Part shown: positions 1,790 through 49,277 of the stretch, in pieces
How positions within the stretch are numbered: position 1 is the stretch's first letter
How the letters are laid out: every line of letters starts with the position of its first letter
Assembly: GCF_040954835.1 (NCBI RefSeq)
Contig: NC_090697.1
Coordinates: 6,336,501-6,400,500, forward strand
DNA: 64,000 nucleotides
Source of the DNA: Lepisosteus oculatus
Taxonomy: Eukaryota > Chordata > Actinopteri > Semionotiformes > Lepisosteidae
Direction: 5' to 3'
Notes under the pieces: model-generated
The model's database searches: none
The model's input: only the letters and a program-made list of their open reading frames with translations
What the model was told of the DNA's origin: nothing
Made by a program: the position numbers and the translations under genes

Positions 1790-1967
1790 TTTACTTTCAG
1801 TGCAGCAAACTCACTCCAGAAGTTCAGCGAGGATCTCTGAATGATCCAATGTTGTCCTAAATGACTGATGGTGATAAATAGAATCCACCTGTGTGTAATC
1901 AAGTCTCTGTATAAATGCACCTGCTCTGTGATAGTCTCAAGGTTCTGTTGAAAGCGCAGAGAGCATC

Positions 1968-2987: not shown

Positions 2988-2993
2988 CGCAAG

Positions 2994-3206
2994 GGGGCCG
3001 AATAATTTTGCACGCCCCACTTTTCATTTTTTTATTAGTTAAAAAAGTTTCAAAAATCCAATAGATTTTGTTCCACTTCACAATTGTGTCCCACTTGTTG
3101 GTGATTCTTCACATAAAATAAAAAATTTATATCTTTATGTTTGAAGCCTGAAATGTGGCAAAAGGTTGAAAAGTTCAAGGGGGCCGAATACTTTCGCAAG
3201 GCACTG
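2994..3206 (-). repeat. Right terminal inverted repeat of the Tc1-like element
   Basis: Inverted match to 1577-1789, ending CGCAAGGCACTG before the TA at 3207-3208. The few differences from the left repeat are scattered single bases, which suggests limited age. Confidence 0.93.
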
Positions 3207-3287
3207 TATATGGGGGTATATAGTAGACTATGTGAGAGGCGATATAACTACTCATCAGACACAGCCAGGAAGCACAAATCGCTGGTT

Positions 3288-3868
3288 TTGCAGCCATATC
3301 ACCCTGCAACTCACTGCAACTGGCAGCCCACTGAGGCTCAGCAAGTGTGAGCCTGGTCAGTACCTGGATGGAGACCTGAGAAAAACTGTGGTTGCTGCTG
3401 GAAGAGGTGTTAGTGGGGCCAGTAGGGGGCGCTCACCATGTGGTCTGTGTGGCTCCTAATGCCTCAGTATAGTGACGGGGACACTGTACTGTAAAAAGAT
3501 GCCATCGTTCTGATGAGACGTAAAACCGAGGTCCTGACTCTCTGTGGTCATTATTAATCCCAGGACGTTTTCTCGAAAAGAGTAGGGCTGTTACCCAGGC
3601 ATCCTGGCCAAATTTCCCATTGGCCTTTACCAGTCATTGGCTCCTAATAATCCCCATCTATGAATTGGCTTAATCACTCTGCTCTCCTCCCCACTGAGAG
3701 CTGGTGTGTGGGGAGAGTACTGGTGCACTATGGCTGCTGTCACATCATCCAGGTGGGGCTGCACACTGGTGCTGGTGGAGGGGATCCTCATTACCTGTAA
3801 AGCGCTTTAAGTGGAGTGTCCAGAAAAGTGCTATACAAGTATAAGCAATTATTATTATTAATTAATTA
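3288..3868 (+). repeat. 5S rRNA-derived SINE (SINE3 type)
   Basis: The head resembles 5S rRNA: a start like GCCATATCACCCTG, a box-A-like stretch at about 3333-3355, and a box-C-like stretch at 3357-3376 (CAGTACCTGGATGGAGACC, against the 5S internal promoter). A unique body follows. The 3' tail, with AAAGCGCTTTAAG, a TATACAAGTATAAGCAATTATT stretch and an (ATT)n run, resembles the tail of L2-type LINEs. A second copy in the opposite orientation lies at 47578-48141. 5S-headed SINEs transcribed by RNA polymerase III are known in fish; assigning this one to that class rests on my alignment by eye. Confidence 0.75.
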
Positions 3869-5124: not shown

Positions 5125-8100
5125 GTATATTTTTGTCTTTGTTTTCTCCTCGCGCGCGGCTCTCCCTGCCCCTGCTGTGATTCCCTCAGCCCCAGTCCCC
5201 AGACAGAGGGGAAAAAGGCCCTCACGCCACAGGACCAGGTGCCAGGCTTCAGCTGAGTTTGACACCGTCTAGATGTCGGAGGGGGTGATTAATGTAACAG
5301 GACTCACTGTGCCAAGCCATTTACTGTACATTTACAAGAATGTGCCAGCAGCCCACAGCCTGGCTAAGGGCAGAGCTTTGTGTTGGGATTAGACACACTA
5401 TGTAGGTATTCTAGATTTGGATGGTAAGGACTACAAATTTGTTTAATCATTACAACAGTGCTGTAATGCATTTTACACAGTGCTATTTTTTGTGCTCGCC
5501 CCATATTGATATTCCTGTAGCCGGTAATGATTAAAGTACTGATTATTACATTTTTTTTACAAGTACAACTCGAATGAAAAAGACCTGAAGGAGGCCAGTG
5601 AGCCCACTTTTACACATACATACAAGTGCTAATTGATCCTAAAACTCTTTCATCTGGGTTAAATGTAACAAATATGAGGGACAATGAAATAAGGTTTATA
5701 AGATAAAGGTTATTTAAACAGGTCTCTGGAGGTATGCACATTTGTTTTCTCTAATGACATGACCATGGTTTGTTAGTAAAATGATGCCCCAAAATGCAAT
5801 GGTTTAAAGTAAAATATTACACACAATACCTTTAGTGCCTATATACAAATATTTTCTACTGAAGCTAAACTTGTTGTCAGCAAACATTAATTCAGGCCTG
5901 AAAGTCTTCTAGGAAATTAATCTTCTAACATTAAGGGGAATGTTGAGAAAGAATAAAAATCTGATAAGTGGTTTAACACTTGAGTGCTATTTATGCTTAA
6001 GTGAGAAAAAAACAGCATTGCCTAAGCTTACTGCTTAGATAAGGTTAGATGTCTGAGATAGTTCAACACACTGCATATTTTTACAGGAAATCTGTGGTTT
6101 GTGAATTTTACCCACAATAACTCTAGCTCATCCATTTGTGTATGCTAAGCAGTTTTAGGGGAAGTTTTTGCTGATTTTTGCATGTTTATAACAAATTGCA
6201 GCTGTGATTAGGAGTCATTGAATGTAACACCTCTTACGTTTTGAGTTATTGAATAGTTTTGTTCTTGTTTTATATTAAATAAAAATGCTATTTAATAACT
6301 ATACATTACATATTATCCTTCCATCAACCTTTTTGACCCAGTTTTAACTATAAAGACTTCCTGGGCTTTATTGTCCTTCACTTGTAACTTAAATTTAATT
6401 TAATCTTCTAGAAACTCCTTTCTCCTTTTCCTGGGCGGAGTGGTGGCTCTGTAGCTAAGGATCTGTGCCTGTGGCTGGAAGGTTGCCGGTTCATATCCCG
6501 CGGCTGGCAGAGGAATCCTACTCTGTTGGGCCCCTGAGCAAGGCCCTTAACCCCAGCTGCTCCAGGGGTGCTGTATAAATGGCTGACCCTGCACTCTGAC
6601 CCCCAGCTTCTCTCCCTGTCTGGGTGTCTCATGGAGAGCAGGCTGGGGTAGGTGAAAAGACTAAAATTCCCAAAACAAGAAATTGTATATGGCCAATAAA
6701 GTGATCTGATCTGAAGTTTGTTGAAAAATGACTTCTGACACCTGAAAAAGGCTCCATGGCAGAAACGTTTTGTTTTCTTTCTTCTTTTTTTCAGCATGGA
6801 ATAAACCTATTACTTGTTCCTTTGCAGTCTACGCATGCTGACAGGGCTATCCACCCGAAGAACTAAGTGTGTTCACATGCCTTTGGAATTGTAGATATTA
6901 CAGAGATACCCCTTGTCTTACCAGAATTCAGTTTATTTCTCATATGCTCAAATGTCTGTTTGCATGCATGATTTAATACAAAGACACATTTACCACAGTA
7001 AATTCATCTCTTCTACCTTGATCAACGCTTACAATAATAAATTAATGTCCAATTAATATTGCAAAAATGCTGATACTACTAAATAAGTGTAGTTAAATTA
7101 ATCAGTCAATTACATTATTTAAAATAAACCTAACAAAGAGCTTTTCAGAGAACCATGAATATGAGCTTTTGCATTCTAGTTTATTCTTTCCCTAGTCCTG
7201 GCTGAACTGAGTCACCTTATTATCTAAGACTGTGGAGAAAATTAACGTCAATATTTGCAGTGATGAATGCTATAAGAATTTATGTGTTTATGTTAGAAAC
7301 TGTGTTTAGCAGCTCCTAGAGAATGCTGCTTAACATGTTTCCAGTCAGGGGAAATCAAACATTTACTGTAAGTGTGAAGTTAATAATGTGGTGCAAATGT
7401 TCAGTGGTTTGTGCTCTGTAAAGCTTCAGTGCTTCTCAAAAACCGTACTAGTAAAACCGTTTTCATTGGATATTCAGCCATGTGATTATTATTATGTCTT
7501 TATTTCATTCACTTACTGTATATACATGCCAGTGTTAGATGAGTTTGAGTTGGTTAGGGTGTCATTAGCTGCACGATAAGATCCCCTGCGGCTTGCTAGG
7601 AGCCTGCGAGATTGAGCAGTGTGTTATTAATTAGAGAAAGTGACATCCGTTCAGTGCAAGTTTCATCAGCCCTGCTATCATTGCATCTGCTGTAGCTATG
7701 ACATTATTACACAGCCTCCATTAGATATGATTGACAACATAAATTTGTGGTGGTCATAATCATGTTCGTAGTTTTACGCCTCTGGCTCAGTAAAGATGCA
7801 GCTACGGTATATTGTGAGAAAAATGAAGTGATTTCAAGAAAAAGCTTGTTTATGAGAAGGCAAGCTATTATTATTGAGGCTGAAACCAAAGATCTAGCAT
7901 TCCAGTAAGAGTTTTTCTTAGCAATGAAGATTTAGTGTATACCTTTTTGTATACCTTACTTATATATTTTTTGTATACCTTTATGTTTTATAAACTGCGT
8001 ATAAAGAAGATTCTGTTTTAATCTGTAAAAGCAAAAAAGTCTCTCAAGACAGTTTACTGACTTGTAACTTAACAAAAATCACTTCTCTCTTTTCCTGTAA

Positions 8101-14100: not shown

Positions 14101-17100
14101 ATATATATAGTACGTCATGTTGTTGTACTGTCCAAATTTATATAAAAATTGGAATCCTGCAACAGCACAGATTGTGGCAAAATGTGGCTCATGACACAGT
14201 TCGGTTTTAAGGAAAAACTCTAAAGTTATAGCAGCTGTTTGGATTTTAAAGCCATTCCACGGATTCAGTGAATTCAGTGTGGATTGATTTCCGATTACCA
14301 TTGAATGAATTGCCATTGAATACCATTGATTGGGCGGTGGCTAAATTCCATTCAAGTTTTATAATAATAATAATAAACTTTATTTTATATAGCACCTTTA
14401 AAGGTGGCTTCTCAAAGCGCTTTACAGGATGACAACAACAATAAATAAGAAGAATACACAAGATAAAACACAGTTACAATATATAGAGGAGACCGTGGAT
14501 GGTGGTACTAAGAAAAGCAGAGGGGTGAAGAATGGAACCAGTTATGTAAAGGCTTTTCTGAAGAAGAAGGTTTTGAGGATTTGAAGGAGTTTAGAGAAGG
14601 TGACTCTCTGATATCCTTTGGGAGAGAGTTCCAGAGCTTGGGGGAATAACAGGAGAAGGCCCTGTCACCCATACAATGTAGACGGGCTTGGGGGTAAGGA
14701 GAGCAGAATTAGAAGAGTTTTAGAATCAGTCTGATTGGTGATGCCATTCCCCAATTCCTTACCTGATCTGCTCTGCAGTGGGACTGCTGGTATAGTATAT
14801 AATGGCCTGTTGCACATGGTGGGTGAAGTGGGTTCCCTCTGGTATCTAAAGTACTTTGAGATATTCTGGGGTAAAAATCAGTATTCAATAGAATTATTGC
14901 AATGATGAATGATGAAGCAGGGATCCACATTATCTGTGTCTTGTCTGGATGCCATTCAGAGAACCAAAATCTTTCTCAGTAAATCCTGACTGAAAATTGG
15001 TAGGATCAAGATAATGTATTTATGTGGCAAGTTAATTTTTGCCCAGGCTGCTCACTATTGTTCTGTGGTGAACTTGAGATTTGCTTATTGCCAGGAGAGT
15101 TTTCTTGACATGGTCCTACTGTATCCTACAGGAAGGTTTGCTTTGCTACATTCCCTCACACATAAAGAAGCAAATCTACTGTATTTGTGTTGTATGGGTG
15201 TGGAAGTGGTTGTATGGTTTTGTGTGAAGATTGTCAGGTATGTTCAACAGATGTTTTGTTTGCATTAATAAATGCAAAGAGAAATGTTAGGCCAGAATAT
15301 AATCCATTTTCTGAAGGTCTACTTACACATGTCTATATTGGCAAACAAATATTTTTGGTATTATCAAAAACTGGAATTGTTACCCTAATCCACTAAATGA
15401 AAAGAAACAGTTGTAGAAAATGGAAGTACCAAGTTCCAAATTTCAGCAGTCCTTTTGTTAGACTGTGGTAAAACAGTTTCAGAAGCTAATATAATATAAG
15501 TCTGAATAATGAAAAAAAAAAAATCACTCTAGCCTAGCCTGTCAGATGACTATGTTATGAAATTCTCAGTTAAGCAGTTTTCAGTATGTGGTTAACTTTA
15601 TTTTTCAAAGTGTTGCAAATTCTTTCTTTGAGTAACTTGATAGTCTTGCATCTTTGAACCCCCAATGAGTGTTGAAAATGACTCACTTCACCTTAGACTT
15701 CATTCTTTCTTAACCATTTCTTCTTAACATTTGAATGTTTCTTCTGTACACATTTTAAACACATTTGAACATCAAATAGAAGGCATTGACATTGCATTAC
15801 ATAAATTGGCACCACATCTTAATCATTGCTGATCTCTTTTCCAGATCACACTGTATGTGTTGTATCTCTTTTTATGATCAAAAATCAAGTAGAATGTAAT
15901 TTTACAGACATCTCAGAGGAAGGAATTTAGTAAAATATTATGTAAACCTTTGAAAAATCACTGTAACAGGGGTTGTCACTCAAGCCAGCTACCTGTGTGT
16001 TTGGAGTATCACATTGTGCTCTCCAGTGTTCTGCAGTGCTGTTCTTGATCCATGTAGCGTCATTAAGTCTCAGACCCAATGAATGAAGTTCTTTTGTCCT
16101 TAAAGCAGGGAATCCTACACGCAATGAGACTGGATGTCTGTCAGTATTTGCAGAATCACATAACCAGTTAAGTTGAATTTAAGATTCAGAGGAAACGCGT
16201 CTTCAGCCCATACCACGCAATGTCTTTCAAGGATTATCAGATGTGTGCTTTTCACATCTCTCTAACAGGCGTGAACGCTGTGACCTCTCACAGGAGAGCA
16301 GGGGGGTAGTGTGGAGGCATGCTCCTCCGACCCAGTGGCCTTCAAGCACATTCCCCTGTAGGGAAGATGCAGCACAGCTGGGAGGACCCCTCTTTGCACA
16401 GAGGCTTCTTTGCAGTCTAGCAGGAGACCTGAGGGAGGCCGCTGAGGTCAGCGGGTTTGCCCAAGAGCCGACTGTACATGCCTGGGCAATCCCAAGCCTC
16501 AGACTCTGCTCAATGGTGCTCTTTTGCCTGTGGAGCCACTCAGGAGGCTGTGGTGAGAAGGATTGGATTAAAAATACTCTTCCTTGTCCAGCTGCCTAGA
16601 CTGAATAGTTCTCATGCTTGAATGAGGCTTTTCTTCTCTTCGTGATTTAATGGCAGATCTGTATAAACAAAAACAGCCAAAATTTCTTCCACATTGCAGT
16701 GTTTCCCTCGAATAACCTGATCAGACAGCTGTATCCCCAGAGACGTAGAATCTGAGCTAAAAGAAAACAATGCTTAAAATTGCATAACAGCAGGGAAGTT
16801 ACATTTTTTATGTACTTGAAGAGAGTAAGGCAAGTTCTAAGGAAATGTCTTGTAATGGTAAAAATAGGTTGTAATACCCTTAAATGCAATATACTGTTAA
16901 TTAATGTGGTTAGTCTGGTTTCTGTTTAAACGTTTCTGTGTCAAAAGTCGTGTTAGTCACAAGGTTCATAAATGAAACTATTGTGCTGAAGTTGAGTAAG
17001 CATAAACGCCACATTCCTTCTGTGATTGCTTTGAATCATTCTAAATTTTTCATTTAAAAAATAAGAAATGAAGATCTACAGTTTCTTATAAAGACCTGTA

Positions 17101-26100: not shown

Positions 26101-29100
26101 CCAAATGGATGCCAAGTTACAGGAGTGACAGGATTTAACCAAAGAGTGCTCAAAGTACCAAAAGAGTAAAATAAAATGTAAAAGTCTGGCACAACTAAGC
26201 CATATGCAGATCTTTCAAGCTAAAATATGTCATGGTTTTCTAACAGAATAAAATTAATAACAGTTATAGGTTATATGATACATTTTATAAGACCTTAATC
26301 TTCCAGAAACAATATTGATAAAAACATGCTTATACTGTACATTTAAAAAATCAGCTCTTAAATTTCCCCCCATTAATATCAATTGCTTATGTAGGGTACA
26401 ATACATTTATAAAGATAATTATTTCCCTGTTAGAGCTGGTTTACACAGACATCAGAATAAAAACTGTATGTACAGAAGATTTCAAATAACCACTACACCA
26501 GTGACAGAGTTGACAAAATAGAATCTACATGTGGATGGTTTTAAAAAATAAATGTGTGATATGCTTGAGCATCACAGCAATACTGTTATCAGTAATTGTT
26601 TTGCCACAAAATGTAGTGAAAGGAGATCCCATTTAAAATCCATAGTTTCACCATCTCAATACTGAGCAAAACAGATTCTAAATCGAGAAAAAAATAATCA
26701 TAATAACGTTCTCCTCTGTTGATCCTACAGACCTGTACATGACAATTTGGTCCTAATGTTTGTGAGCTAGAGAAAGCTGGTATTGTGACTTGGGAAACAC
26801 AGCTTTTACTGTAATTAGAAGTGCAGACTCAGAATGTGTCTGCTGCTTTGCCACAATATACTGACTGTTAAAAGCAGGCTGTTAAACACCAAGAACTGAC
26901 CCCATGGCCTGCTTGTGGCTAACCTCCAAATGACCTTCTGATAAATCTCTAAGGGAAGGCAGAAGAGAAGCAACCTTACCTCACTATTGGACAGGTTCCA
27001 AGAAAGAAATAACAACGCGCATGCTTGATGTTTAGAGAAAGGGCTTGACACTTCATGCCATGGACATAATATTTTGAATGTTGTTCCTTTTGGCCCTCAC
27101 ATTTGCGTGTTTTTTCTGTACAAATACTGTGGTGTGATGTATTGGAACAACCCACTGGAACTGCTGTTTATAATTGTGCAATCCTAGCCACTGTGATCCT
27201 GGAATGGTTTTGGAAAAAGTATTTCTTATGCTTCACTTCTGGTCCATGAGCAATATTTAGAGAGAAAAAGAACACAGAGAAAAAGAACAGAACACCATGA
27301 ACGTAAAAGTCCCACATGGTAAGAATTAAGCAGGATTTAATATAACAAGGATAGAATGAGTTCTAAGAAACGTCCAACTGGGTTTAGTTCAGAAGAAATT
27401 GCTAGTTGAGATTGCAAAGATTGTATTAATTTACCATTAAACTATTCTTGAGGGAGAGTGACCAATGCTTTTATTTTTAGCTAATCTCAGTGCACTCAGT
27501 GTGGGGATTAAAAACTATTTAAAAACTGAATATAATAAAGGTTAAAATTATACAATGTTATAAATAAGTTTTATTAATACAATTATATTTTTATTTTTCA
27601 TACCTTTCCCAAGAAGGCTGATTTAATCATCTGTCAGAAATGGGTTTAGTCAATTGCCTGGCCATCTAGAGTCTGGCCATTGTGAATTCCTCAAGGACGG
27701 GACAAAGGCAAGTGTGGAGCTAAAATCTGCCTGAGCAAATGCTTCCAATGAATATCAATGGAAGCACTCTGAGATGAAAACAAAAATTGATACCCCATCA
27801 TAGCAAACATACAGTAGCAGTGTGAAGCTTTAGAGTGTGTAAGCCAGCACTAACATAGTGGATTAGATCATACAGCAGTTATGTTGTATCTCTTAATGTG
27901 CATTTTTGCTTTTAATATTTAACATTTAGCTGTATTTATATTAGTTATATACAATTGATTTAAAATACAGTATGTTGCAATTGACTGTATTGACTGATCC
28001 ACCTTACCGAGGGACATTACAGTACCTGTATTATTAAAAATCAGTGTCATTTGTTTCTTATCTTTTCTGTCTCACCAGGGTTTCAAAGAAGTGTGGCTAT
28101 TGCAGACTCCAACTACAACTGGTTCTATGGCCCAGAGAGCCAGCTGGTTTTCCTGGACAGCTATGTCATGCGCAATGGCAGTGGCAACTGGCTTGCAGAG
28201 ATGATCCGTAAGAACAGGGTTGTGGACGGGCCCGGGCAGGCAGGGAAGGGACAGAGGTGGTGCACTCTTCACACAGAATTCATCTGGTGAGCTTCCACTA
28301 CAGCTGGGACAGAAGCTCTCAGTCACTGCTCCAACAGGCAGGCAGTGAAGAAGCACATTTGTTGTGTGTTATACATTTCAAATTAAGCGTAACATTGAAA
28401 GCAGAAATACATCGTCATTCAGTAGACTGTAAAATTACATGTGTATCAAATCCATAAAATTGGAATAGAAATGGAAGTCCTAAAATGTAAAACCAGTAAA
28501 CGCCAGTTACTTTTTGTGTTTTTTTTTTCTGTCAGGAAGCTTAGCTGAATTAAGTGTAATTTTTATGACACAAATTTTGCAATTGTTTGCTCAAAGTCCT
28601 TAATTTGTTTTTAGAGTTTAATGGAGTCGTTGATAGATTTTCCTCAGCTTTTTCTCACAAAAGGCATGCCTGTGAATACAAGTATAATCGTGTAAAGAGT
28701 AAAGGGATCTGAGCAGTATTTTTTGGTTATAGATTTTCTTTATTGCTGAACATGCCAAAGGGAATTCAATCCCAGCATCTCACCCAGTGAACAGGATTTC
28801 ATTGGTCCTTTAATAAGTCGTTGTATTTTCCATGAACAATTCCTTCTTAAGTTATTTTATGCAGCTTTTTTTCCCAAAATTTTGATTAATAAAAAAATGT
28901 CAATTTAAACGGTTGCACATGTAATATTAATCCCAAAATATTTTTTTATTGTTTTTCCTTTGGGGAAAAAAAAATCTATGTACTGTATGTTGTCTTATGT
29001 GTTGTTTCTCTATTAAAAAGTCTTAAGTCCTCCCATGTTTTCCCTTTTGATCATGCAGGTATAATCCAAATCTGACCTCTACAGCTCCTGCAGACTTTGG

Positions 29101-30811
29101 GAAACCCAGACTGCATTATTTTGAGGACTGGGGAGTGGTCACCTACGGTAGTGCATTACCAGCAGGGATCAACAGAACATTCCTCTCCTTCAAATCGGGA
29201 AAACTGGGAGGCCGTGCCATATTTGACATCGTGCACAGGAATAAGTACAAAGATTGGATAAAAGGGTGGAGAAACTTCAATGCTGGCCATGAGCATCCTG
29301 ACCAAAACTCCTTTACATTCGCACCCAACGGTGTACCTTTCATTACGGAAGCACTATACGGACCAAAGTACACTTTCCTGAACAACGTCGTTATGTTCTC
29401 CCCTGCGGCTTCTGACAGCTGCTTTGCCCCTTGGGAAGGGCAGGTAACAGAAGCCTGTACGTCGAAGTGGCTGAAATATAAACAAGGGGCAGCTGCAGAC
29501 TGCCAGGGCAAGGTAGTGGCAGCTCTGGAAAGGAACGGGATGGTATTCATTCGAGGGGAGGGAAAGGGTGCCTACAGTCCTGGCCTGAAGATAAAGAGCT
29601 TCCAAAGGAACTTGCTCCTTCTGCAACCTCAGCTCTTACTCTTGGTAGACCACGTTCATTTGGAGAGCGACAGCCCAGTAGGGCTAATGAGTAGCTATTT
29701 CCATAATACTGACTTGCCTTTTGAGGAGACTGTGAAAGATGGTGTACATGGAGCATTTATTAGACACAGAGATGGATTATATAAAATGTTCTGGATGGAT
29801 GATACGGGATACAGTGATAAAGGGGTTCTAGGATACAGAAACTATCCTCGTGGGTATCCTTATAATGGGTCTAACTATGTGAATGTGACTCTCCCACTGA
29901 GGAACCCAAATTCCAGGGGAGTATTCATTTTCTTTGGTCCTGATATGGATGTCCAGAGTTTCAGTATCCGTAGTGATGCCCAGAGAGTAGATATTTACTT
30001 AGCCACTAGTGAACACACGTATACAGTCTACCTCCTCACGGGGGAAGTCACAAGCAAACCTCTTTTTGCCATGGTGCTGGCTGACCACGAGAAGGTTGTC
30101 TTTGAGAAAGCCTCAGGGCTCAAGGAGAGCTCGCCGGCTGAGGTCAACAACTACGCAAACTTCGTGGAGGACAACCTCCAGCATGCTAAGCCCGTCTTCC
30201 AGCAGCTGCAGAAACAGATCCTGGCTCGCGTGCTCAACACTGATAACTTCAGGAAGACGGCCGAGCGCCTCCTAGATTTCTCAGACCAGAAGAAGACGGA
30301 GGAAATCATCGAGAAAATGTTCACCCTCAAAAAGAAGCAAAACAGGAACAAAAACTCCAAGAAAGGAGCTCTCGCTGACAAGCTTTCAGATGGACTCCCA
30401 GATATTTTTGCTCAGATTGAGGTCAATGAAAAGAAGGAACGGCAAAAGGCCATGAAGCGCGTGTATGATGAAGACATTGAGGAAGCAGATGGGGATGCCA
30501 GGGCCTTTCTGGACTACAGCGACCTTCGGCTTCCCAAAGGCAGGAAAAGTGGCATTTTTAAACAACGGAAATACAAGGAACTTCCTATGGTTTCTACTGA
30601 CAGAAGTACTGACCCTTTAATCTCTGCATCCTATATAAGACTGTTCCTCATTTTAAATACTGCTACTTTTTTCTTCTTGTTGGCTTTACTGCTGACTCGA
30701 TTTCAAAAAACGCAAGGTCTGCACACTAAGAGGTGTTTCTATGGCATTGTCCTTGTTGACAGCTTTATCCTGCTGTGTTTATATTCCTCATGTTCAAGAG
30801 CACAGTGCTGA
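4709..30811 (+). CDS. DSE: Dermatan sulfate epimerase (five coding exons)
   Basis: Joined exons 4709-5124, 13511-13764, 22244-22483, 28079-28286 and 29059-30811 give 2,871 nt, or 956 codons plus stop (human 958). The enzyme converts D-glucuronic acid to L-iduronic acid in chondroitin sulfate, forming dermatan sulfate in the ER/Golgi lumen. Residues 1 to about 23 form a signal peptide. The lyase-like epimerase domain follows; His205, Tyr261 and His450, reported as catalytic in the human enzyme, are present at the same numbers. Two hydrophobic helices lie near 901-919 and 933-950 close to the C terminus. A lysine-rich stretch sits before the acidic segment at about residues 825-865. All exon junctions keep frame with GT/AG borders. 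The identification is by clear residue-for-residue similarity to vertebrate DSE, not by a search. Confidence 0.97.
6426..6713 (+). repeat. tRNA-headed SINE with GATCT tail
   Basis: Has an A-box-like GTGGCTCTGTAGCTAAGGAT and a B-box-like GGTTCATATCCC, the internal promoter layout of tRNA-derived SINEs, followed by a body and a short tail of GATCT units after AATAAAGT. A second copy on the opposite strand lies at about 41010-41292 with the same head, body and tail. Both copies are joined on their tail side to the same Penelope-like sequence. Confidence 0.75.
6722..6868 (+). mobile_element. Penelope-like fragment attached to the SINE
   Basis: Reads ACACCTGAAAAAGGCTCCAT, then GCAGAAACG, a pyrimidine-rich run, CAGCATGGAATAAACC, and ends near GCTATCCACCCGAAGAAC. 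The same series recurs on the other strand at about 40862-40985. I recall this as a common fish repeat of the Penelope-like class, whose terminal repeats carry hammerhead-like folds. The class assignment is from memory and moderate. Confidence 0.45.
9990..10215 (-). mobile_element. CR1-like LINE fragment
   Basis: The + strand text, read in reverse, matches part of a CR1-type reverse transcriptase region: the stretch around ATAGTTTCAATTATCTTGCA and the following TGGATGGACATTACATTAT parallel a family I also see at 11060-11160. It is heavily decayed and carries no usable reading frame. Confidence 0.55.
10735..11660 (-). mobile_element. CR1-like LINE fragment
   Basis: Decayed antisense LINE sequence. 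Recognisable blocks include GATCCCTGTGGTACTCCACT (the complement of the conserved SGVPQGS region of the reverse transcriptase) at about 10816 and a repeat of the 9990 fragment at about 11040-11160. The part after about 11430 is weaker. No open frame survives. Confidence 0.6.
13488..13510 (+). other. DSE: Pure poly-T tract abutting a DSE splice acceptor
   Basis: Twenty-one consecutive T bases run straight into AG at 13509-13510, with coding exon 2 starting at 13511. It serves as the polypyrimidine tract of the acceptor. Homopolymers of this length mutate readily, so its length may vary between individuals, and assembly error is also possible. Confidence 0.8.
13511..13764 (+). CDS. DSE: DSE coding exon 2
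   Basis: Completes Trp139, then reads [19 protein letters not shown] and continues through the [14 protein letters not shown] block, which includes His205, one of the proposed catalytic residues. It ends with the first base of the Gly224 codon before donor GTGAGT. The internal match to the family is nearly continuous. Confidence 0.96.
14362..14720 (-). mobile_element. L2-like LINE 3' end
   Basis: Begins on the + strand with (ATA)n and AACTTTATTTTATATAGCACC, the complement of the characteristic L2 tail, followed by sequence closely matching the longer antisense copy at 44912-45735. It is a 5'-truncated, non-coding remnant. Confidence 0.75.
17150..17355 (-). mobile_element. CR1-like LINE fragment, interrupted by a hAT element
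   Basis: Blocks such as GTAGTCTTCTCTGTTCAAGA and TTCAGCCTGTCAGTGTAGGA match the antisense 3' region of the CR1-like family seen at 24955-25850 and 33936-34830. The match continues briefly after the hAT element with CCTGAAATG at about 18126. Confidence 0.65.
17364..18117. mobile_element. hAT-Charlie-type non-autonomous transposon
   Basis: A 754-bp insertion starting CAGGGGTCGGCA and ending TGCCGACGCCTA, an imperfect inverted repeat of the hAT type. It is flanked by perfect 8-bp duplications CCTTAAAC at 17356-17363 and 18118-18125. The interior holds a remnant of a transposase on the - strand (17438-17632) with [20 protein letters not shown], typical of Charlie/ZBED-like transposases, followed by the expected cysteine-containing PEK segment. 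The catalytic part is missing, so this is an internally deleted copy. Confidence 0.85.
17438..17632 (-). pseudogene. hAT-Charlie transposase remnant
   Basis: About 64 residues from the amino-terminal part of a hAT transposase of the kind also found in GTF2IRD2 and ZBED-derived genes. Landmarks are the KRKFVENV and [10 protein letters not shown] segments and a closing CPEK. A second open stretch, 17556-17834 in another frame, may be the degraded upstream part. The RNase-H-like domain with its acidic residues is absent. Confidence 0.55.
22244..22483 (+). CDS. DSE: DSE coding exon 3
   Basis: The acceptor CCCTGTCGCAG ends at 22243. The exon completes Gly224 and reads [19 protein letters not shown], then [18 protein letters not shown] with catalytic Tyr261, and ends [10 protein letters not shown]...ILP plus the first base of a Gly codon before GTAAAA. 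Frame and sequence agree with vertebrate DSE throughout. Confidence 0.96.
24350..24490 (-). mobile_element. Short CR1-like LINE fragment
   Basis: The block from ATCTCATCCAGCTGTGTCCT to TTACTCCATGC parallels the extreme 3' coding end of the CR1-like family in antisense. It is small and diverged. Confidence 0.4.
24955..25850 (-). mobile_element. CR1-like LINE 3' fragment
   Basis: Starts with GAAAGGTTACAAACGAGAGA and CATTCAGCCCATCC, a signature I recall for a widespread CR1-like family in non-teleost fishes. Antisense reverse-transcriptase C-terminal sequence follows, including the blocks GTCAGGTCCCCTCGTAGTC and GCAGCAATATCTTTT. Frames are broken. Confidence 0.7.
28079..28286 (+). CDS. DSE: DSE coding exon 4
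   Basis: The acceptor TCTCACCAG ends at 28078. It encodes [20 protein letters not shown], then [20 protein letters not shown] and [12 protein letters not shown]. The NGSG motif is a potential N-glycosylation site shared with mammals. It ends within a Trp codon (TG|G, residue 373) before GTGAGC. Confidence 0.96.
28287..29058 (+). other. DSE: DSE intron 4 (772 bp)
   Basis: AT-rich intron from GTGAGC to the acceptor ATCATGCAG, with no repeat family recognised. Confidence 0.9.
29059..30811 (+). CDS. DSE: DSE coding exon 5 (terminal)
   Basis: This 1,753-bp last exon carries more than half of the protein, from Tyr374 to the stop. It includes the [16 protein letters not shown] block with His450, several N-x-S/T sites (such as NGSN and NVT), a lysine-rich stretch ([13 protein letters not shown]), [17 protein letters not shown], and the two C-terminal membrane helices ending CSRAQC. 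Large terminal exons are typical of vertebrate DSE. Confidence 0.97.
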
Positions 30812-38385: not shown

Positions 38386-39689
38386 TATTGTAATCACCAT
38401 GGGCCTGTTCACAGCTGGAGGTGGGCCTGTAGTCTGGGTTTCTGAGTTCACGAACTAAAAATATTAGACAACTTCATCATGATAAATCAAGCAATTTAGA
38501 GATCATATCAGACCAGATTCTGAGTACCTCTCTCAGCTCTCTTCAGTAACCAAAAGATTCCTAAATGGAACTTGCTTACTTCACTGATACCTTAAATGTG
38601 TTTCCTATCATGTGAAACCACTGATATGTAAGACTAGCTGGGCTGGTGCTCTACAGGACCAGGGATGGAGACCTCTACCATATACAGTAGGTATAATAGG
38701 AGCCTAGGAGCTTTCTTACTATGTACAGTTTAGTGCTTACTGTGTAATTTGTCCAAGAGGGGTTGGAGTTTTACCAAGCTGGGAAGTACCTGGAAATTAA
38801 CCAAAAGTGTTCAAGATTCTTTAGGTGTTTTGAGTAGTAGGTACAGTACTGTAGAACTGGGAATCTATTGGCAGGATTTCTGTAGTAAAAATTCAATCTA
38901 AGCATGTAGTGCTGCATTCTCAACCCGCATGAGTACTCCAGCACTACTCTATTGCCTCCTGTACCTCTTTATAATACTGTACCTTGCTGTTAGATATGGA
39001 CAAAGGAATGAAAAATGGTAAAAAAAAACAATTAACAACCATGTTAATGATCCACTCAACTGTGCTGATGTACAGGTAATATATAGTACATGCCAATGTC
39101 GTAGTTTGTCAGATAATCGGTGAAGAACTTTAGATTTCCTTGTTCCCCAGGCTGATTTTATGTGGTGGTATGTGGTGTTTTTCTGTGTTGGGCCATGCAT
39201 TTTTCTGTATTAAGAAGATTATTCCCAGATGTAGCATGTAGAATGCTGATGCAATAAAGGTGGAGTGGATTATGAAAAAAAATCAAACAGCTTGTGCATG
39301 TTTTTCCATGAGAGACTAGTGTTTGTCACATGTTCGAGCAAACAGTTTTTTTTATTAACTTCTACATTCTATAAATCTTGCATCACTATTCAGGAAATAT
39401 GCAGTATTCTCTAGAAAACCAAAATATCGGAGGTTAAATATTTTCGTGAGATATAAATCATGGCAAGAATTAAAGATGTTGGCAGTATTCCTCACACAAT
39501 TAATTTAAATGACCGTTTTTCCTGAAATCATCATTCACTCTTTAAAATGTAACTCAGGTTCAAGCTTAGTTACGTTGTTTCTGAGAAACTCTGACAGATA
39601 TCGGAGATCATAGCACATAACTACCACTTCCTCTGCTTTTAATAAGTGGAAAAGATTGCAATGACTATTTTAAAGGCTTTTTCCTTCTT
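38386..39689. other. Unassigned intergenic sequence
   Basis: No gene or known repeat seen up to the start of the duplicated unit A at about 39690. Confidence 0.4.
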
Positions 39690-40003
39690 GTTATTTGCTG
39701 CCGCCTACTGGTAATACCTATTAACACCACTTGAAAGTTCGTCCTGAATACAGTGACCGCAGCGATAAACTCAACGAGTTTCAAAAAATATTCAAAAATA
39801 TTTTTTTATTTAATTAAAAAACATTTTTTATTTAGTCAACAGCTTCAATATTTGCTTGTATTGATCTACACCAAACAGCCAATTATTTCATTTCTGTTTT
39901 ATGTGGAAAATAGTTTACGAAGCTAATTTGTGAGATCTGTGTTCATTAGCCTAAAAATGTACAGTAACTTAAACAATCTTAAAAGACAGACACATCGCCT
40001 AAA

Positions 40004-40800
40004 TTAATTAACTCCCAGGCACTTAAAACTGCTGACCATCTCCACTGAAGTGCCATTGATGTAAATAGGTGTGTGATCTCCTCCCTGGTGTTTCCTATAA
40101 TCCATAATCATCTCCTTAGTCTTACTGATGCTCAGAGAGAGGTTGTTCTCCTGGCACCATGCCGCCAGGGTTTCAACCTCCTCCCTGTACTCAGACTCTT
40201 CACCATCTGTGAGCAGGCTGATGACTGTTGTATCGTCTACAAACTTAATGATGGAGTTTGTGTTATGCCTGGCGACACAATCATGAGTAAATAAGGAGTA
40301 GAGGACAGGGCTAAGCACACAGTCTTGGGGGGCTCCAGTGTTTAGAGTCAGGGTAGAGGATATGTTGGTGCCCACCTTCACCACCTGCGGACGTTCTGTC
40401 AAGAAGTCCAGGATCCAGGTACAGAGGGAGGTGTTCAGTCCCAGGTCCTGGAGCTTGATGACAAGCTTTGAGGGCAATATGGTATTGAATGCTGAGCTGT
40501 AATCAATAAACACCATTCTCACATACAGTTCTGTATGTTCCTTTCTTATCCAGGTGTGAGAGGGCAGTATTGAGGGCAGTGGCAATAGCATCTTCTGTTG
40601 ACCTGTTCTGGCGATACGCAAATTGTAGTGGGACTGGGGGTGTCAGGCAGTGAGGAGGTGATGTATGCTTTGACCACTCGAAGCACTTCATGATAACTGA
40701 TGTGAGTGTAACGGGGCTGCAGTCATTAAGGCAACTGACTCTGGGTTTCTTAGGGACAGGGACGATGGTGGTTTTCTTAAGCAGGAAGGAACTATAGACT
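40004..40800 (-). mobile_element. LINE reverse-transcriptase fragment (jockey/CR1 group, Rex1-like)
   Basis: The - strand frame 40004-40621 encodes a reverse-transcriptase core: [11 protein letters not shown] (palm motif), [20 protein letters not shown], then [10 protein letters not shown] at the catalytic box and [20 protein letters not shown]. The usual FADD is FVDD here. A second frame (40503-40691) continues the upstream part ([15 protein letters not shown]), so a frameshift lies near 40530. Both ends are missing, so this is a dead fragment. Confidence 0.8.
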
Positions 40801-40855
40801 GAGCTAGAGAAAGATTAAATACAGTATGTCCAAGAAGACATAAGACAGAAGAAAT

Positions 40856-41343
40856 TAGTTCAGGTGGGTAGCTGCGTCAGCGTGCGTAGGCTGCAAAGGA
40901 ACAAGTAATAGGTTTATTCCATGCTGAAAAAAAAGAAGAAATAGAACACAACGTTTCGGCCGTGGAGCCTTCTTCAGGTGTCATAAATAATTTTTCAACA
41001 AACTTCAGATCAGATCAGATCACTTTATTGGCCATATACAATTTCTTGTTTTGGGAATTTTAGTCTTTTTACATACCCCAGCCTGCTCTCCATGAGACAC
41101 CCAGACAGGGAGGGAAGCTGGGGGTCAGAGTGCAGGGTCAACCATTTATACTGCACCCCTGGAGCAGCTGGGGTTAAGGGCCTCGCTCAGGGGCCCAGTG
41201 GAGTAGGATTCCTCTGCCAGCCATGGGATATGAACCAGCATCCTTCCAGCCACAGGCACAGATCCTTAGCTACAGAGCCACCCCTCCACCCTATATGTAT
41301 ATATGTCTTTTTTCAGCATGGAATAAACCTATTACTTGTTCCT
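40856..41343 (-). mobile_element. SINE/Penelope-like composite insertion
   Basis: A 488-bp insertion inside unit A flanked by 13-bp direct repeats AGACAGAAGAAAT (40843-40855 and 41344-41356). Read on the - strand it consists of a short inverted piece (complement of 41307-41343), the tRNA-headed SINE, its GATCT tail, a GAAGTTTGTTGAAAAAT link, and a Penelope-like end with ACACCTGAAGAAGGCTCCAC. The inner part matches the composite at 6426-6868, including the join. The short piece near 41307-41343 (CAGCATGGAATAAACC) is an inverted repeat of 40898-40935. Confidence 0.7.
41010..41292 (-). repeat. tRNA-headed SINE with GATCT tail (within the composite)
   Basis: Antisense copy of 6426-6713. The tail complement (AGATC)n is at its left and the GGTGGCTCTGTAG-like head is at its right. 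Confidence 0.75.
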
Positions 41344-41885
41344 AGACAGAAGAAATGTCTGTTTAGGAAACGCCCAACATATATACAATTAAAAGATACG
41401 TGCAGAAGTGTTATTCTTGTAAAGAATATTTGCCGTTTAAAATTGACAAACCTGCGGTGTCTCGACTCCCATCAATCAATTATATTTTAAAATATTTTTT
41501 ACCATACAGATTATAATGTTGCATTTTGTCGTTACTTATTAGCAGCCTAACAAACGTTAGTTAGGTATAGTATTTCAATTTATACAATATGGTTGCTCAA
41601 AGTTCTCATAATCTATAGTATGGTTTCAGTACAAAAATGAGGGGGGAATTGATATCAGAAAATAAATCGTCAAAAATAGAGTCTCGGAGGTTTATTTCTG
41701 GATATAATAAGTTCGCTGCCTGGTTTTACTCGCATTTAACTCATCCGTGGACACAAGAGTGACCTCTTCCATGCACGGGTATTCAATGTTGGTTTTGTTT
41801 GTTCCTTGTCACTTTCCGTAGAAAGTTCGGCTGTCTGACCATAATGTTTCACGGAGTGCGATAAAATTGTATTACGAAGTGAAAT

Positions 41886-42869
41886 ATGGGGTCGCTTGTT
41901 TTATGTGCGTTCAGAAATTTTAAACTGGAAAACTGTGCTCACAAACCTTCAGCGGCGCCTTGACCAAAGGCATTATACAGCAAATAAAAGAAATTCGAAA
42001 AACATCAGTGAGCAATTTGGCATTGACGAGGTTGTGTAACGTGTAGTGCATTAAATGGGTTACACAGACACAAGCGATGTTTTTTCATAGACAATTGTGA
42101 TATTTTATCTCATGTACTATGCTTAAATAATGTTTCTTGTCGTACATACAGTCTTTTGATAGCCACTGTATGTATCACATGCTGCATAAATAGTTAATTC
42201 ATGTTTGCCTTCTACCACCTTGAGGTTAAGAATACTTAATATTATTCTACTGGGTACAGGAACACTGATCTCTGACTGACTAATCTGCATTTTTGGAGAA
42301 GGCATACAGTAATATGTGTGGGACATGCAGCAGAGACGTGTTTTTCTGCTTATTTTTCCTCATTATATTCTTGTGGCCATAACCTTGCTCATGAGATGAT
42401 TCTCTTGTTCATGTTTGTGTATGTTGTTTTCTGTGTTTTCTATATTGTCTGCTGCTGTAAACAATTGCCCATTCGGAATACTAAAGACATTTATTCCCTC
42501 GCACTTATTTTCCTCTTTCTTACATGTTGTAAACTTCTGGTGTTTCAATTCTTGCAGAACCCGATGAAGACAAAAATTCCAAGTAAAAATGAAGAGGAGT
42601 GCAGGCCTTGCAAATCCCGTGTAGTGGGAAACCCCTATGGCATTTTGGACATTAAAGACATCCCAAAAGGAAAACTGTCCATTGTGGAGGCCTTGACCGT
42701 CCTCAACAACTACAAACACTCTCCTAAATCTTGGACACCTAATAAAATAGCCCAAGAGTACTCTTTAGACTTAAAGGATACCAAGGCACTTCTGGAATTC
42801 TTCATTCTCTTTGATGTTAAAATTATACCACCAAAGACTGAAGACAAGAAGCAGATAAAAGCTAACTAA
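41886..42869 (+). pseudogene. Broken NDUFAF4 duplicate
   Basis: Exon 1 (41886 to about 42016) starts ATGGGGTCGC like the working gene but lacks 18 bp near codon 19 and 10 bp soon after, which brings a TGA directly behind GCGCCT. The splice donor GTAAG of the working copy is deleted. Exon 2 is missing together with about 2.1 kb of intron. Exon 3 (42558-42869) is complete, keeps its CAATTCTTGCAG acceptor, and encodes the same 103 residues as the working copy. A poly(A) signal AATAAA lies at 42999-43004. As a whole it cannot make NDUFAF4. Whether exon 3 is used in another transcript is open. Confidence 0.85.
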
Positions 42870-44159
42870 CAGTCTTCATCACTGATCTGTTTTAGAAATA
42901 TTAATGTAATCATCCTGGACATTTGTACAACATTGCTCAGGCTACAAGATGCAGTTCCTTGATTGGTTTTAAACGAGATTAGATAAAAATGATTAAGGAA
43001 TAAAAACAATGTTGTAAAGATTCATTTTATATTTCATTTTATATCTGCCATTCTTGTATTGTAAAAGTGCTTGTATTTTTTGTGGTTGAATTAAACTTCA
43101 TTATGTGTTGCTTTGTATAAGAAGTAATCCATATTTTAATATTGAATTAGTAAATAGCCACGAGCAACATATATACACAGGCTCTCGTCTTTTATTGGTT
43201 CATCTTTAGTCTCTTCTCGTCGATCCCAGATCAATTGAAACTGAATCTTTTATTCCCAAAGGCTTGTAAATGGAATTATTTAAACAGGTAGGCAAACAAA
43301 CTTAATACATCAGAAGTCAGAAAAAAATATAAAATGCATCTTTTGCTATATTGAAATTAAATCTTATAAACTAGCACTGCTAGTTACACAAACCATTTTG
43401 AACATTTATTTTCTGAAGTGGTCTCTGCAGGTTTGGTGCTGTATGAAAAAAGCATGCTACGAAAGCTGCTACCTTATAGAAAGTTGCTATTATGTTATTG
43501 TTTTATATTAATTTCTGCAGTAGTTAAACATTTGCATTTTACAATGCCAAGATGATATGACCACAGGGTAAACTGGGAAAATATAGTACAGAAATTGTAA
43601 ACAAACTGTCCTTGTAAATCAGATTTTTGTCCTATAGGCCTCTGATATTTGATATTTCTGTCAATTAGCAAGTAATCTTTTCTTTTCATAATACTGCTTG
43701 AAGAATGGTGTTGACTGTGACTTAACATATTCATCACAGGAGCATTGTCATCTAATTTTGAGGTGTGGCTCAATAATAATTCACATTCTTTCTCGTTATT
43801 TGCTGCCGCCTTCTGGTAACGCCTATTAACACCACTTGAAAGTTAGTGCTGAATACAGTGACCGTAGTGATAAACTCTACCAAAAAAGTGTTTGAACTCA
43901 CGGGGACAGTGGGTCTGTAAAAATATATTTTTTTATTTAATTAAAAAAAACATTTTTTTATTTAGTCAACAGCTGCACTATTTCCTTTTATTGATCTACA
44001 CCAAACAGCGAATTATTTCATTTCTGTTTTATATGGTTATTGGTTTGCTAAGCCAATTTGTGAGATCTGTGTTCACTAGCCTAAAAATCGAATTTAAACA
44101 ATCTTAAAAGACAGACACATCCCCTAAACTAATAAAATACATTAACTGGCTTCCAGGAA

Positions 44160-44645: not shown

Positions 44646-44911
44646 CGCCCTACACAGTCATTTACAATTAAAATATATGTGCAAACGAATAGTTGCCGTT
44701 TACAATTGACAAACCTGCGGTGTCCCGAATCCTATCAATCGGTGATATTCTGAAATATTGTTTACCTTACAGATTATAATGTTGCATTTTATCGTTACTT
44801 ATTAGCAGCTTAACAAACATCTGTTAGGTATAGTATTTCAATTTATACAATATGGTTGCTCAGAGTTCTCATAGTCTATAGTGTGGTTTCAGTGGAATTA
44901 CAAGAATGGTA

Positions 44912-45735
44912 ATAATAATAAACCTTATTTTATATAGCGCCTTTAAAGGTGGCTTATCAAAGCGCTTTACAGAATGACAACGACAATAAATTAAAAGAAT
45001 ACACAAGATAAAACACAATTACAATATACAGAGGAGACCGTGGATGGGGTAGTAGGAAAAGCAGAGGGGTGAAGAATGGAACCAGTTAAGTAAATGCTCT
45101 TCTAAAGAAGAAGGTTTTGAGTCTGGATTTGAAGGAGTTCAGAGAAGGTGACTCTCTGGTATCCTTGCGCAGAGAGTTCCAGAGCTTGTTGGCATAACAG
45201 GAGAAGGCCCTGTCGCCCATACAATGTAGACGGGCTTGGGGGACAGTAAGGAGGGCAGAATTTGAAGAGCGAAGGTTCTGATGTGGGGAGTAGGGCTATA
45301 ATAGTTTAGACAGGTACTGAGGTGCCAAGCCATGCAGAGCCTTATAGGCGAGCATGAGGATTTTAAGGTCCACACGGAATTTGACAGGAAGCCAGTGCAA
45401 GGACCCCGGGATAGGAGTAATGTGATCACTTGCACTATACCTCGTCAGGATTCTGGCTGCCAAATATTAGACAAACTGGAGTTTGTTCAATGTGGAGTTA
45501 GATACCCCAGAAAGTCGAGCATTACAGCAGTCAATTCGAGAGAACACAAATGTGTTGATCAGCTTTTCACCCACAGTTAGTGACAGCACAGGGCGTAGTC
45601 TAGCGATATTTCTGAGGTGAAAAAAAGATGTTTTGACAATATGCTGCACATGTGGGTCGAATGTTAAGCCAGAATCGAATATCACCTCAAGGTTTTTCAA
45701 TTTAGACAGAAGCTCAAGTACAGACCCATCTACGA
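44912..45735 (-). mobile_element. L2-like LINE 3' end
   Basis: The + strand begins with (AAT)n and CCTTATTTTATATAGCGCC, the complement of an L2 tail. The frame at 45467-45700 on the - strand reads the C-terminal region of an L2 reverse transcriptase (NLEVIFDSGLTFDPHVQHIV, FFHLRNIARLRPVLS, FSRIDCCNARLSG). It is 5'-truncated. It inserted in unit B only; unit A is continuous there. Confidence 0.8.
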
Positions 45736-45986: not shown

Positions 45987-46122
45987 ATGGGGTCGCGTGT
46001 TTCACGTGCGTTCAGAAATTTTAATCTGGAAAACCGGGCTCACAAGGAGATAAGCAAATCCAAACCTTCAGCGGCGCCTCATCACCCTTTGACTAAAGGC
46101 ATCATACAGCAAATTAAAGAAA
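45987..46122 (+). CDS. NDUFAF4: NDUFAF4 exon 1
   Basis: Encodes the first 45 residues and one base of codon 46, then donor GTAAGT. The sequence stays open for another 15 codons past the donor, but the family match stops at the splice point and resumes in exon 2. Confidence 0.93.
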
Positions 46123-49111
46123 GTAAGTCGAAAAACACCAGTGAGCAATTTGTCATTGACGAGGTTGTGTAACGTGTAGTGCATTGAATGAGTTACACAG
46201 ACACACGCGATGCTTTTTCATAGATAATTGTGATATTTTATCTTATGTACTCTACTTAAATCATGTTCCTTGTTTAACATTTAACCTATTTAATGTAACG
46301 ATATTTATTCTTGAAATATCAACATCATGTCAGTGACATTGAAGTCTTAGTAAATTTATTGAATATGCCAAGAATTACCAGTAAATTCGATGACCATTTC
46401 CCTTACTAGAGTATCGATTTAGATTTGTTAAGCTTTTTGCGACATCGTTAAACTGAAACAAGAAGAATTTTAAGTCAAGGGGTTTTATGTAAACTGAGCT
46501 GTGACCTTGTACTTAAGAATGCAGTATAAATGTGTGATTAATATTTAAATTTTAAAGTATTTTGAAAGGAAAATATTTTAACATTAACTAGGTCCACTTC
46601 CTGCAGTTGTACTTAACTAAACGAAATTTTAAACGAGGTATTCATCTCATACATGGTATAATTGTACATGGGGCTGCACTTGATGTACTGTTTTTTAATT
46701 GTTTTTATATTGGTTGGTCAATTCTGTAATTACCTGAACATTTGGGATGTTTTCCATGGGGGTAACCTAAAGAATATACTTAAGGGAAGTTCTGTCTTCA
46801 CATTTCTGTAAAAAGAAGCAAAATGAGTTAAGGCTCTTTTTTCTTGTACCTGTTCTAACAAGGGCAGTATATTTTGTGCAGTGGTTAAAACTGCTGCCTC
46901 GCAACACAGGGGCCCTGGGTTCAATTCTGGATCTGGGGTGCTGTCTGTGTAGAGTTTGCATGTTCCCCCCCGTGGGTTTCCCAAGGATTTCCTTCCACAG
47001 TCCCAAAACATATTGGTTGGTTAATTGGCATCTGGGAAAGTTGGCCCTGGTGTGTGGGTGTGACCAGGATATGTCAGATTTTGAAAGCGTAAAGGAAAAA
47101 GCATATTTCCAAAACCCTCATCTATGTCTAAGGCTTCTGTTTCGCAAAGCTGTAGCAAAGCATAGCAGATGGTAAGTGCAGCACTTCACTTTATAGTTTG
47201 GTAAATCTATTGTGTTACAGGTGTGAAATAATGTCGACTCTAGAGAATAAACGTCAGCTTTAAAGACAAGAGAATTCTAGAAAATAAAACCTACTTAATT
47301 GTTTTCTTTCTCACTTGTTGATATAGATCCTGAGGCTACTGAATCCATCAATAAGAAGAATGAGCATCTTTTGTCATTACTAAAGACAGTATATGTGGAG
47401 TCAAAAGACCCTCCCCAACAGGTAAGAACAGTTTTGCTGGAATGCTTATCCCAATGTGAAACAAAGCCCTGTTCACTTTTCCCAGACAAAATATAGCCAG
47501 GAGCTCACAGTCTCCCTTGATTAATTAACTCTTGATTCCCATTTTCCCCCAATTTATTCAACCCATATGAATAATGTATTATTAATAATAAATAATTGCT
47601 TACACTTTTATAGCACTTTTCTGAACACCGCACTCAAAGCACTTTAAAGTTAATTGGGATCCCGTCCACCACCACCAGTGTGCAGCCCCACCTGGACAGC
47701 AGCCATAGTTCACCAGTACACTCCCCATGCACCAGCTCTCAGTGGGGAGGAGAACAGAGTGATGAAGCCAATTTATAGATGGGGATTATTAGGAGGTTAT
47801 GATTGGTCAGGGGCAATGGTAAATTTGGCCAGGACACCGGGGTTACACCCCTACTCGATTCGAGAAACACCCTGGGATTTTTAATGACCACCGAGAGTCA
47901 GGACCTCAGTTTTATGTCTCATCCGAAAGGACGGCTTCTTTTTACAGTATAGTGTCCCCATCACTATACTGGGGCATTAGGACCCACACAGACTGTAGGG
48001 AGAGCACCCCCTACAGGCACCACTAACACCTCTTACAGCAGCAGCCTTAGTTTGCCTCCCATCCAGGTGCTGACCAGGCTCACACTTGCTGAGCTTCAAT
48101 GGGCTGACAGCTGTGAGTTGCAGGGTGATATAGTTGCTGGAATAATAGTATTGTCACTTTCAAAAGTATTCTCCCCCTTGATTTTTTAGATTTTGTTGCA
48201 ATAAGAAATCAATGGGATTTTTTGCCATTTATTGACACAAAACATTATAATTTCAAAGTGAAAACAAAATTCTACAGCTCTGCCTATATTAATTTAAAAA
48301 ATAAAACAGAAAATAACTGATTCCAGCAGTATTCACCCCCCTTGAAATCAAATAATATTTGTTAGAGGCACATTTGGCAGAAATTACAGCTGCGAGTCCT
48401 TATTTGATAGCCAGTGTACAGTATGTATCACTTCAATTGTTTATTAATGTTTGCCTTCAGCCACTTTGAGGTTAAGAATACGAAATATTATTGTACTGGG
48501 TAGAGGATCACTGATTTCTGAGTAACTAATCTGCATATATCATAATATATGTGGTACATGCAGAAGAGGTCTGAGTGATATTCTGCTTATTTTTCCTTAT
48601 TATTATCTTGTGGCCATAACCTTGCTTATGAGATGATTCTCTAGTTCATGTTTATGTGTGGTGTTTGTTTTCTGTGTTTTCTATATTGTCTATATTTTCG
48701 ATATAGAAAAAATGCCCATTGGGATTACTAAAGACATTCATTCCCTCTTTTTCTCCTCTTTCTTACATGTTGTAAATTCTTGTGTTTCAATTCTTGCAGA
48801 ACCCGATGAAGACAAAAATTCCAAGTAAAAATGAAGAGGAGTGCAGGCCTTGCAAATCCCGTGTAGTGGGAAACCCCTATGGCATTTTGGACATTAAAGA
48901 CATCCCAAAAGGAAAACTGTCCATTGTGGAGGCCTTGACCGTCCTCAACAACTACAAACACTCTCCTAAATCTTGGACACCTAATAAAATAGCCCAAGAG
49001 TACTCTTTAGACTTAAAGGATACCAAGGCACTTCTGGAATTCTTCATTCTCTTTGACGTTAAAATTATACCACCAAAGACTGAAGACAAGAAGCAGATAA
49101 AAGCTAACTAA
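45987..49111 (+). CDS. NDUFAF4: NADH:ubiquinone oxidoreductase complex assembly factor 4 (three exons)
   Basis: Exons 45987-46122, 47327-47421 and 48800-49111 join to 543 nt, 180 codons plus stop (human 175). NDUFAF4 works in mitochondria with NDUFAF3 in assembling the early membrane/Q modules of complex I. The start [20 protein letters not shown] matches the family; the Gly2 context would permit N-myristoylation. Later blocks are [15 protein letters not shown] and [20 protein letters not shown], the most conserved part. Junctions are AAA|GTAAGT to GATATAG|ATCC (phase 1) and CAG|GTAAGA to TTGCAG|AAC (phase 0). A minimal ORF ATGAAGTGA ends three bases before the start codon if it lies in the mRNA. 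Identity is by family resemblance, not a search. Confidence 0.95.
46866..47075 (+). repeat. GGATGG-type SINE, 5' part
   Basis: TGCAGTGGTTAAAACTGCTG, CCCTGGGTTCAATTCTGG (B-box-like) and GAGTTTGCATGTTCCCCC are the head and body of the family. It lies in NDUFAF4 intron 1. Confidence 0.7.
47327..47421 (+). CDS. NDUFAF4: NDUFAF4 exon 2
   Basis: 95 bp encoding [20 protein letters not shown] and [11 protein letters not shown]. It corresponds to the human segment around LLSFLKDVYVDSKDP. It has no counterpart in unit A. Confidence 0.93.
47578..48141 (-). repeat. 5S rRNA-derived SINE (SINE3 type), antisense
   Basis: Opposite-strand copy of 3288-3868. The L2-like tail complement (AATAATAAATAATTGCTTAC, TTATAGCACTTTTC) is at the left. 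The 5S-like head complement (CCAGGTGCTGACCAGGCTCA, then TTGCAGGGTGATATAG) is at the right end. It lies in NDUFAF4 intron 2. Confidence 0.75.
48155..48395. mobile_element. Tc1-like terminal repeat remnant
   Basis: CAAAAGTATTCTCCCCCTTG, a TTGTTGCAATAAGAAATCAA stretch and CAAAGTGAAAACAAAATTCT resemble the terminal repeat of a second fish Tc1-like family, distinct from the intact element at 1577. An inverted end (GCAGTATTCACCCCCCTTG) at about 48327-48346 suggests a shortened copy. Confidence 0.55.
48800..49111 (+). CDS. NDUFAF4: NDUFAF4 exon 3
   Basis: 312 bp including the stop, encoding 103 residues from [20 protein letters not shown] to the KKQIKAN end. It is identical to 42558-42869 except for one synonymous T/C. 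The 3' UTR has AATAAA at 49278-49283. Confidence 0.95.
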   Translation, partial: NPMKTKIPSKNEEECRPCKSRVVGNPYGILDIKDIPKGKLSIVEALTVLNNYKHSPKSWTPNKIAQEYSLDLKDTKALLEFFILFDVKIIPPKTEDKKQIKAN

Positions 49112-49277
49112 CAGTCTTCATCACTGATCTGTTGTAGAAAAATTAATGTAATCATCCTCTTTTGTTTGAAATGTATTTTTTGGTTAATATTTTCTGGACA
49201 TTTGTACTGCATTGCCCAGGCTACAAGATGCAGTTCCTTGATTGGTTTTAAACAATGTTAAATAAAAATGATTAAGG

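Follow-up and report, generated by a model that had tools for sequence, protein, structure and literature searches.

Gene conversion between nonallelic copies has been described for several kinds of duplicated genes. In the partial text of PMC3924818, such interlocus conversion occurs mainly at identity above ~80%, the efficient segment for conversion in yeast is ~200 bp, and mean conversion tracts in yeast range from ~50 to several hundred bp, and rodent and human estimates are similar. The pictures of conversion in PMC3924837 and PMC3966223, also partial texts, are similar to this account. The closest human counterparts of the locus described here are CYP21A2, GBA, VWF, and SBDS, each part of a gene/pseudogene pair that likewise shares a short common tract within diverged flanks (PMC3924818). 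In the human disease data covered by that text, however, the pseudogene serves as the donor and identity within the pairs exceeds 90%, whereas at the present locus the transfer would have run from gene to pseudogene. In addition, the near flanks of the NDUFAF4 pair are ~90% alike with gaps left out.

Two further systems show related patterns. The opsin L/M pairs (PMC3213168 and PMC3924837, as partial texts) are, like the NDUFAF4 copies, duplicated pairs in which converted segments alternate with diverged ones. Yet the arrangement is reversed: the opsin introns are homogenised and the exons are held apart by selection, whereas in NDUFAF4 it is the exon that appears homogenised and the introns that have diverged. 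The fog-2/ftr-1 genes of Caenorhabditis (PMC3966223, partial text) are also adjacent, moderately diverged paralogs, in which conversion starts near a short stretch of full identity. Those conversions were documented in natural isolates as well as in experimental lines, whereas the NDUFAF4 event is read from two sequences of one assembly. Among the open-licence papers listed, none was seen to describe the NDUFAF4 locus studied here.

Organization of the NDUFAF4 Tandem Duplication

The locus lies in a window of 64,000 nucleotides from Lepisosteus oculatus, which is the whole stretch of DNA analysed. It comprises two tandem direct repeats adjoining at 43786, with the following units and exons:

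39681–43786, + strand: left tandem unit, NDUFAF4 duplicated pseudogene (blastn of the left versus the right region)
41886–41991, + strand: left-copy exon 1, disrupted (gaps of 18 and 10 bp, loss of the donor, 9 of 106 aligned coding sites substituted)
42558–42869, + strand: left-copy exon 3, with an undisturbed frame as far as the stop codon
43786–50079, + strand: right tandem unit, intact NDUFAF4 gene (blastn and breakpoint sequences)
45987–46122, + strand: exon 1 of the right copy, coding part
47327–47421, + strand: right-copy exon 2, for which blastn found nothing corresponding in the left unit
48800–49111, + strand: exon 3 of the right copy, coding part

The exons of the right copy join at GT and AG boundaries into a 543-nt coding sequence of 180 residues, and by its reading frame this copy reads as an intact gene. 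The Pfam family UPF0240 (PF06784) matches right exons 1–2 with 91.6 bits (the junction of the scored chain being approximate) and exon 3, the protein of which is the same in both copies, with 89 bits; the gathering cut-off is 25. UPF0240 is taken here to be the NDUFAF4 family, the gene name following the first-pass annotation. A comparison of the exon 3 protein with solved structures gave no match at E 0.001. NDUFAF4 is N-myristoylated and its knockout leads to complex I loss (PMC11075276, partial text); a protein made from left exon 3 only would presumably be missing the N-myristoylated N-terminus.

The left copy is decayed at its 5′ end. The 18-bp gap in its exon 1 is in frame, the 10-bp gap shifts the frame, and a further gap of 4 bp deletes the donor; the frame of this exon reaches a stop after 25 codons. 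Relative to the right copy, 106 of the 135 coding sites examined align, and 5 of the 9 differences are nonsynonymous when each is placed singly in the right codon. The divergence of left exon 1 is near the flank rate, i.e., this exon has drifted. No counterpart of exon 2 was found in the left unit by blastn; it falls in right segment 46274–48402, one of several further segments of the right unit that are absent from the left. The frameshift, the lost donor, and the missing exon 2 had already been recognized in the first-pass annotation. Together with intron sequence that still aligns, these are the features of an unprocessed pseudogene. The splice acceptor and stop of left exon 3 are intact. 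Judged from its sequence, left exon 3 would be a fresh-looking fossil with no usable first exon.

The two units align in four collinear blocks of 80.3–86.7% identity when gaps are counted (blastn). With gaps left out, the differences amount to 208 of 2658 aligned sites; gap events in the whole alignment number 36. By blastn, nothing in the right unit matches the left segment 40012–41364, and the right segment 44137–44639 likewise lacks a match in the left. At the breakpoints of the duplication, no long common sequence was seen by eye. The left and right copies of exon 3 are ~6.2 kb apart.

Several other features were observed in the window. Segment 40012–41364 contains most of a reverse transcriptase fragment, presumably LINE-like, with an RVT_1 match at 40004–40642 (minus strand) and a second open frame at 40503–40814 (minus strand), the frames spanning 40004–40814. 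This fragment was probably inserted into the left unit after duplication, or else lost from the right copy. Dispersed repeats at 3290–3862, 6433–6859, and 14365–14717 recur in the duplicated units at 47581–48137, 40859–41291, and 44910–45269. A complete-looking Tc1-type element occupies 1572–3211; its inverted arms (1572–1797 and 2986–3211, 226 nt) are 98% complementary, and its long open transposase frame (1935–2987) carries HTH_SB, HTH_Tnp_Tc3_2, and DDE_3 domains. A 586-codon stop-to-stop frame at 29051–30811, without a Pfam match, is taken to be the last exon of a dermatan sulfate epimerase (DSE) gene. Scans of the whole window with Rfam (gathering scores) and for tRNAs found none.

Near-Identical Tract around Exon 3

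Alignment of the two units delimits three segments of interest:

42540–42891, + strand: near-identical tract in the left copy, putative conversion recipient (352 bp, 1 difference)
48782–49133, + strand: counterpart of the tract in the right gene, putative donor
43384–43476, + strand: a further stretch of identity 3′ of exon 3, less strongly supported (0 differences in 92 aligned sites; HMM posterior up to 0.92)

Within exon 3, 1 of 312 positions differs between 42558–42869 and 48800–49111 (42815 T, 49057 C), a synonymous GAT/GAC change, exactly as described in the first-pass annotation, and both copies encode identical 103 residues. The first-pass annotation had set a near-identical exon against diverged flanks. 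The exon is indeed near-identical, but the tract crosses both of its edges: the gap-free segment 42540–42891 extends 18 bp into the intron and 22 bp into the 3′ UTR. Its bounds were obtained by ungapped extension from the exon, the first mismatches being at 42539 upstream and 42892 downstream, and the closest gap events are at 42534 and 42915. The near flanks (42155–43300 minus the tract, ~400 bp on each side) differ at 72 of 751 aligned sites and contain gap events, which bears out the earlier description of flanks diverged by substitutions and indels. The contrast between the tract (1/352) and these flanks has a Fisher exact P of 1.4e-11. It was the same under four gap-scoring schemes, with 1/352 in the tract, 38/352 to 47/360 in the 5′ flank, and 34/399 to 37/405 in the 3′ flank.

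When all differences were permuted, 0 of 100,000 permutations reached a mismatch-free run of 275 bp or a one-mismatch run of 352 bp. Even divergence across exon and flanks is thereby contradicted. Uniform drift of a dead copy, the premise of the first-pass annotation, can be expected only where conversion is absent. A two-state HMM placed a low-divergence segment at 42542–42885 with a posterior up to 0.999, and its log-likelihood was −711.3 versus −729.6 for a one-rate model. The segment of identity is longer than its flanks predict, and its edges, at 42539 and 42892, are abrupt. Divergence is 0.28% within the tract (95% interval 0.007 to 1.6%) versus 9.0% in the duplicate units outside it (207 of 2306 aligned sites), indicating that the putative conversion event is recent relative to the duplication.

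Divergence outside the tract is also somewhat uneven. The longest mismatch-free run there, 104 sites (43380–43484), was attained in 185 of 20,000 permutations; with one mismatch allowed, the longest run is 121 sites, attained in 444 of 20,000. The distal 3′ flank is less diverged, with 29 differences in 481 sites. The patch at 43384–43476 is possibly a second conversion patch or a constrained element.

Gene Conversion as the Probable Source of the Tract

The tract very probably results from a recent interlocus (nonallelic) gene conversion in which the working copy overwrote part of the dead one. A break in the left copy would have been repaired with the right copy, ~6.2 kb away, as the template, and the repair would have replaced the drifted left sequence with that of the working copy. 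The right copy is the likely donor and the left copy the recipient, a direction suggested by the decay of left exon 1 and the undamaged frame within the tract; a copy in decay for so long would hardly have supplied an intact exon. We infer both the conversion and its direction from two sequences of a single assembly. A homologous donor is present in the same genome in the form of the right copy. Indeed, a search of the assembly itself (1,200,105,466 bases, 813 contigs) with the exon 3 DNA gave two matches, both within the window; for repeats and large families, this search gives minimum counts. Thus, no third close copy was seen with this query that could have served as donor.

The pair identity lies above ~80%, and the tract of 352 bp falls within the range of tens to several hundred bp used as a yardstick in the partial text of PMC3924818. 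The close tandem partner, the ~90% ungapped identity of the near flanks, and the ~350-bp tract would fit the general interlocus account given there. By other values in that text, the pair as it now stands would be a marginal substrate for conversion, with a longest identical run outside the tract of 104 sites and near flanks ~90% alike, because that run is shorter than the ~200-bp yeast segment and the human disease pairs are more than 90% alike. The tract could reflect one event or several, which a two-sequence test cannot separate; generally, identity tracts need not equal single conversion events (PMC3924818, partial text).

One feature of the tract counts against conversion: it fits the exon closely, which is not required of a random tract. 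Slower divergence of exon 3 while the right copy was constrained may explain why this exon rather than an intron was hit. Purifying selection on the right copy would have slowed the divergence of exon 3, leaving it with better homology than the introns and making it a likely site of conversion.

Neutral Sites and Alternative Explanations

Two explanations had been offered in the first-pass annotation, local gene conversion and protein-level constraint on left exon 3, and the sites that protein selection would ignore help to separate them. Within the tract, nonsynonymous changes number 0 versus 19.9 expected, and synonymous changes 1 in 64 sites versus 5.2 expected. For the synonymous sites alone, P is 0.076 to 0.012 over flank rates of 6.45% to 9.6%. 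When the 18 intron and 22 UTR sites are added, 1 of 104 sites differs, against ~8–10% expected, and P falls to 0.008 to 0.0003 over the same rates. Neutral sites within the tract have thus been homogenised as well, although the test has modest power. This test favours conversion but by itself is not overwhelming, because the 40 intron and UTR sites lie beside the splice acceptor and the stop codon and may be partly constrained. The state of left exon 1, the absence of exon 2, and the abrupt edges add weight for conversion. Protein constraint alone fails to account for the tract, since hardly any change is seen at the synonymous, intronic, and UTR sites either; of the two explanations, conversion is the one supported. 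As the tract contains both intron and UTR sequence, it is neither a coding-only effect nor the copy of a spliced cDNA. Conversion by spliced cDNA was rejected on the grounds that the tract includes intron sequence beside the acceptor.

It is very unlikely that left exon 3 has been kept by protein-level selection in a transcript starting elsewhere, e.g., through the 157-aa frame from the ATG at 42396. Such selection would agree with a frame that is intact to the stop and matches Pfam UPF0240, as well as with the missing nonsynonymous changes. It would not hold the synonymous, intronic, and UTR sites, and it has to contend with a broken exon 1 and an exon 2 that was not found in the left unit. 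The left intron 42276–42557 is open in the exon 3 frame for 94 codons upstream, compared with 8 in the right copy, and an open frame of this length was reached in only 26 of 5000 Markov simulations. Yet the differences over 42276–42557 number 9, 10, and 4 at codon positions 1, 2, and 3, and the copies are separated there by 10 gap events, a pattern that reveals no coding signature in the intronic frame. A coding explanation for this frame, rare as the frame is in simulations, draws no support from codon positions or indels. In the 157-aa fused frame, the UPF0240 match covers residues 60–147, inside the exon 3 part. A variant of this idea, in which left exon 3 would be translated as an N-terminally replaced NDUFAF4 (a hydrophobic leader from the retained intron joined to the C-terminal half in the 157-aa frame from 42396) and conversion would keep the C-terminal half current, is judged from the sequence to be highly improbable. 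There is similarly little likelihood that left exon 3 was converted and is also of some residual use; its intact splice acceptor and stop would suit such a role, whereas the copy offers no usable first exon.

Less likely still is an error of assembly or polishing by which the right exon 3 sequence was written into the left copy. The 6.2-kb spacing of the copies would favour such an error, but the window has no N, one difference persists in the tract, the tract edges are ordinary mismatches with no gap, and both flanks are copy-specific. Almost no probability attaches to chance or to a local mutation rate that is low throughout. Such a reading could draw on the less diverged distal 3′ flank and on the second identical patch. 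However, apart from the permutation result, even if the rate is set at 6.45%, at most 1 difference in 352 sites has a probability of 1.6e-9. Chance and a uniform rate were rejected by the permutations, this rate probability, and the two-state HMM.

Implications

Gene conversion between nonallelic copies is a known mechanism and an ordinary process, of which this locus, read as a transfer from the working to the dead copy, is a clean two-copy example. It illustrates that conversion can make one exon of a dead gene appear newly conserved. Where annotation or scans for selection rate copies by the identity of their exons, an exon of this kind could be misread as constrained or recent. The locus is also compatible with a model in which selection acting on one copy preserves exons as islands of homology, where conversion between old duplicates still succeeds.
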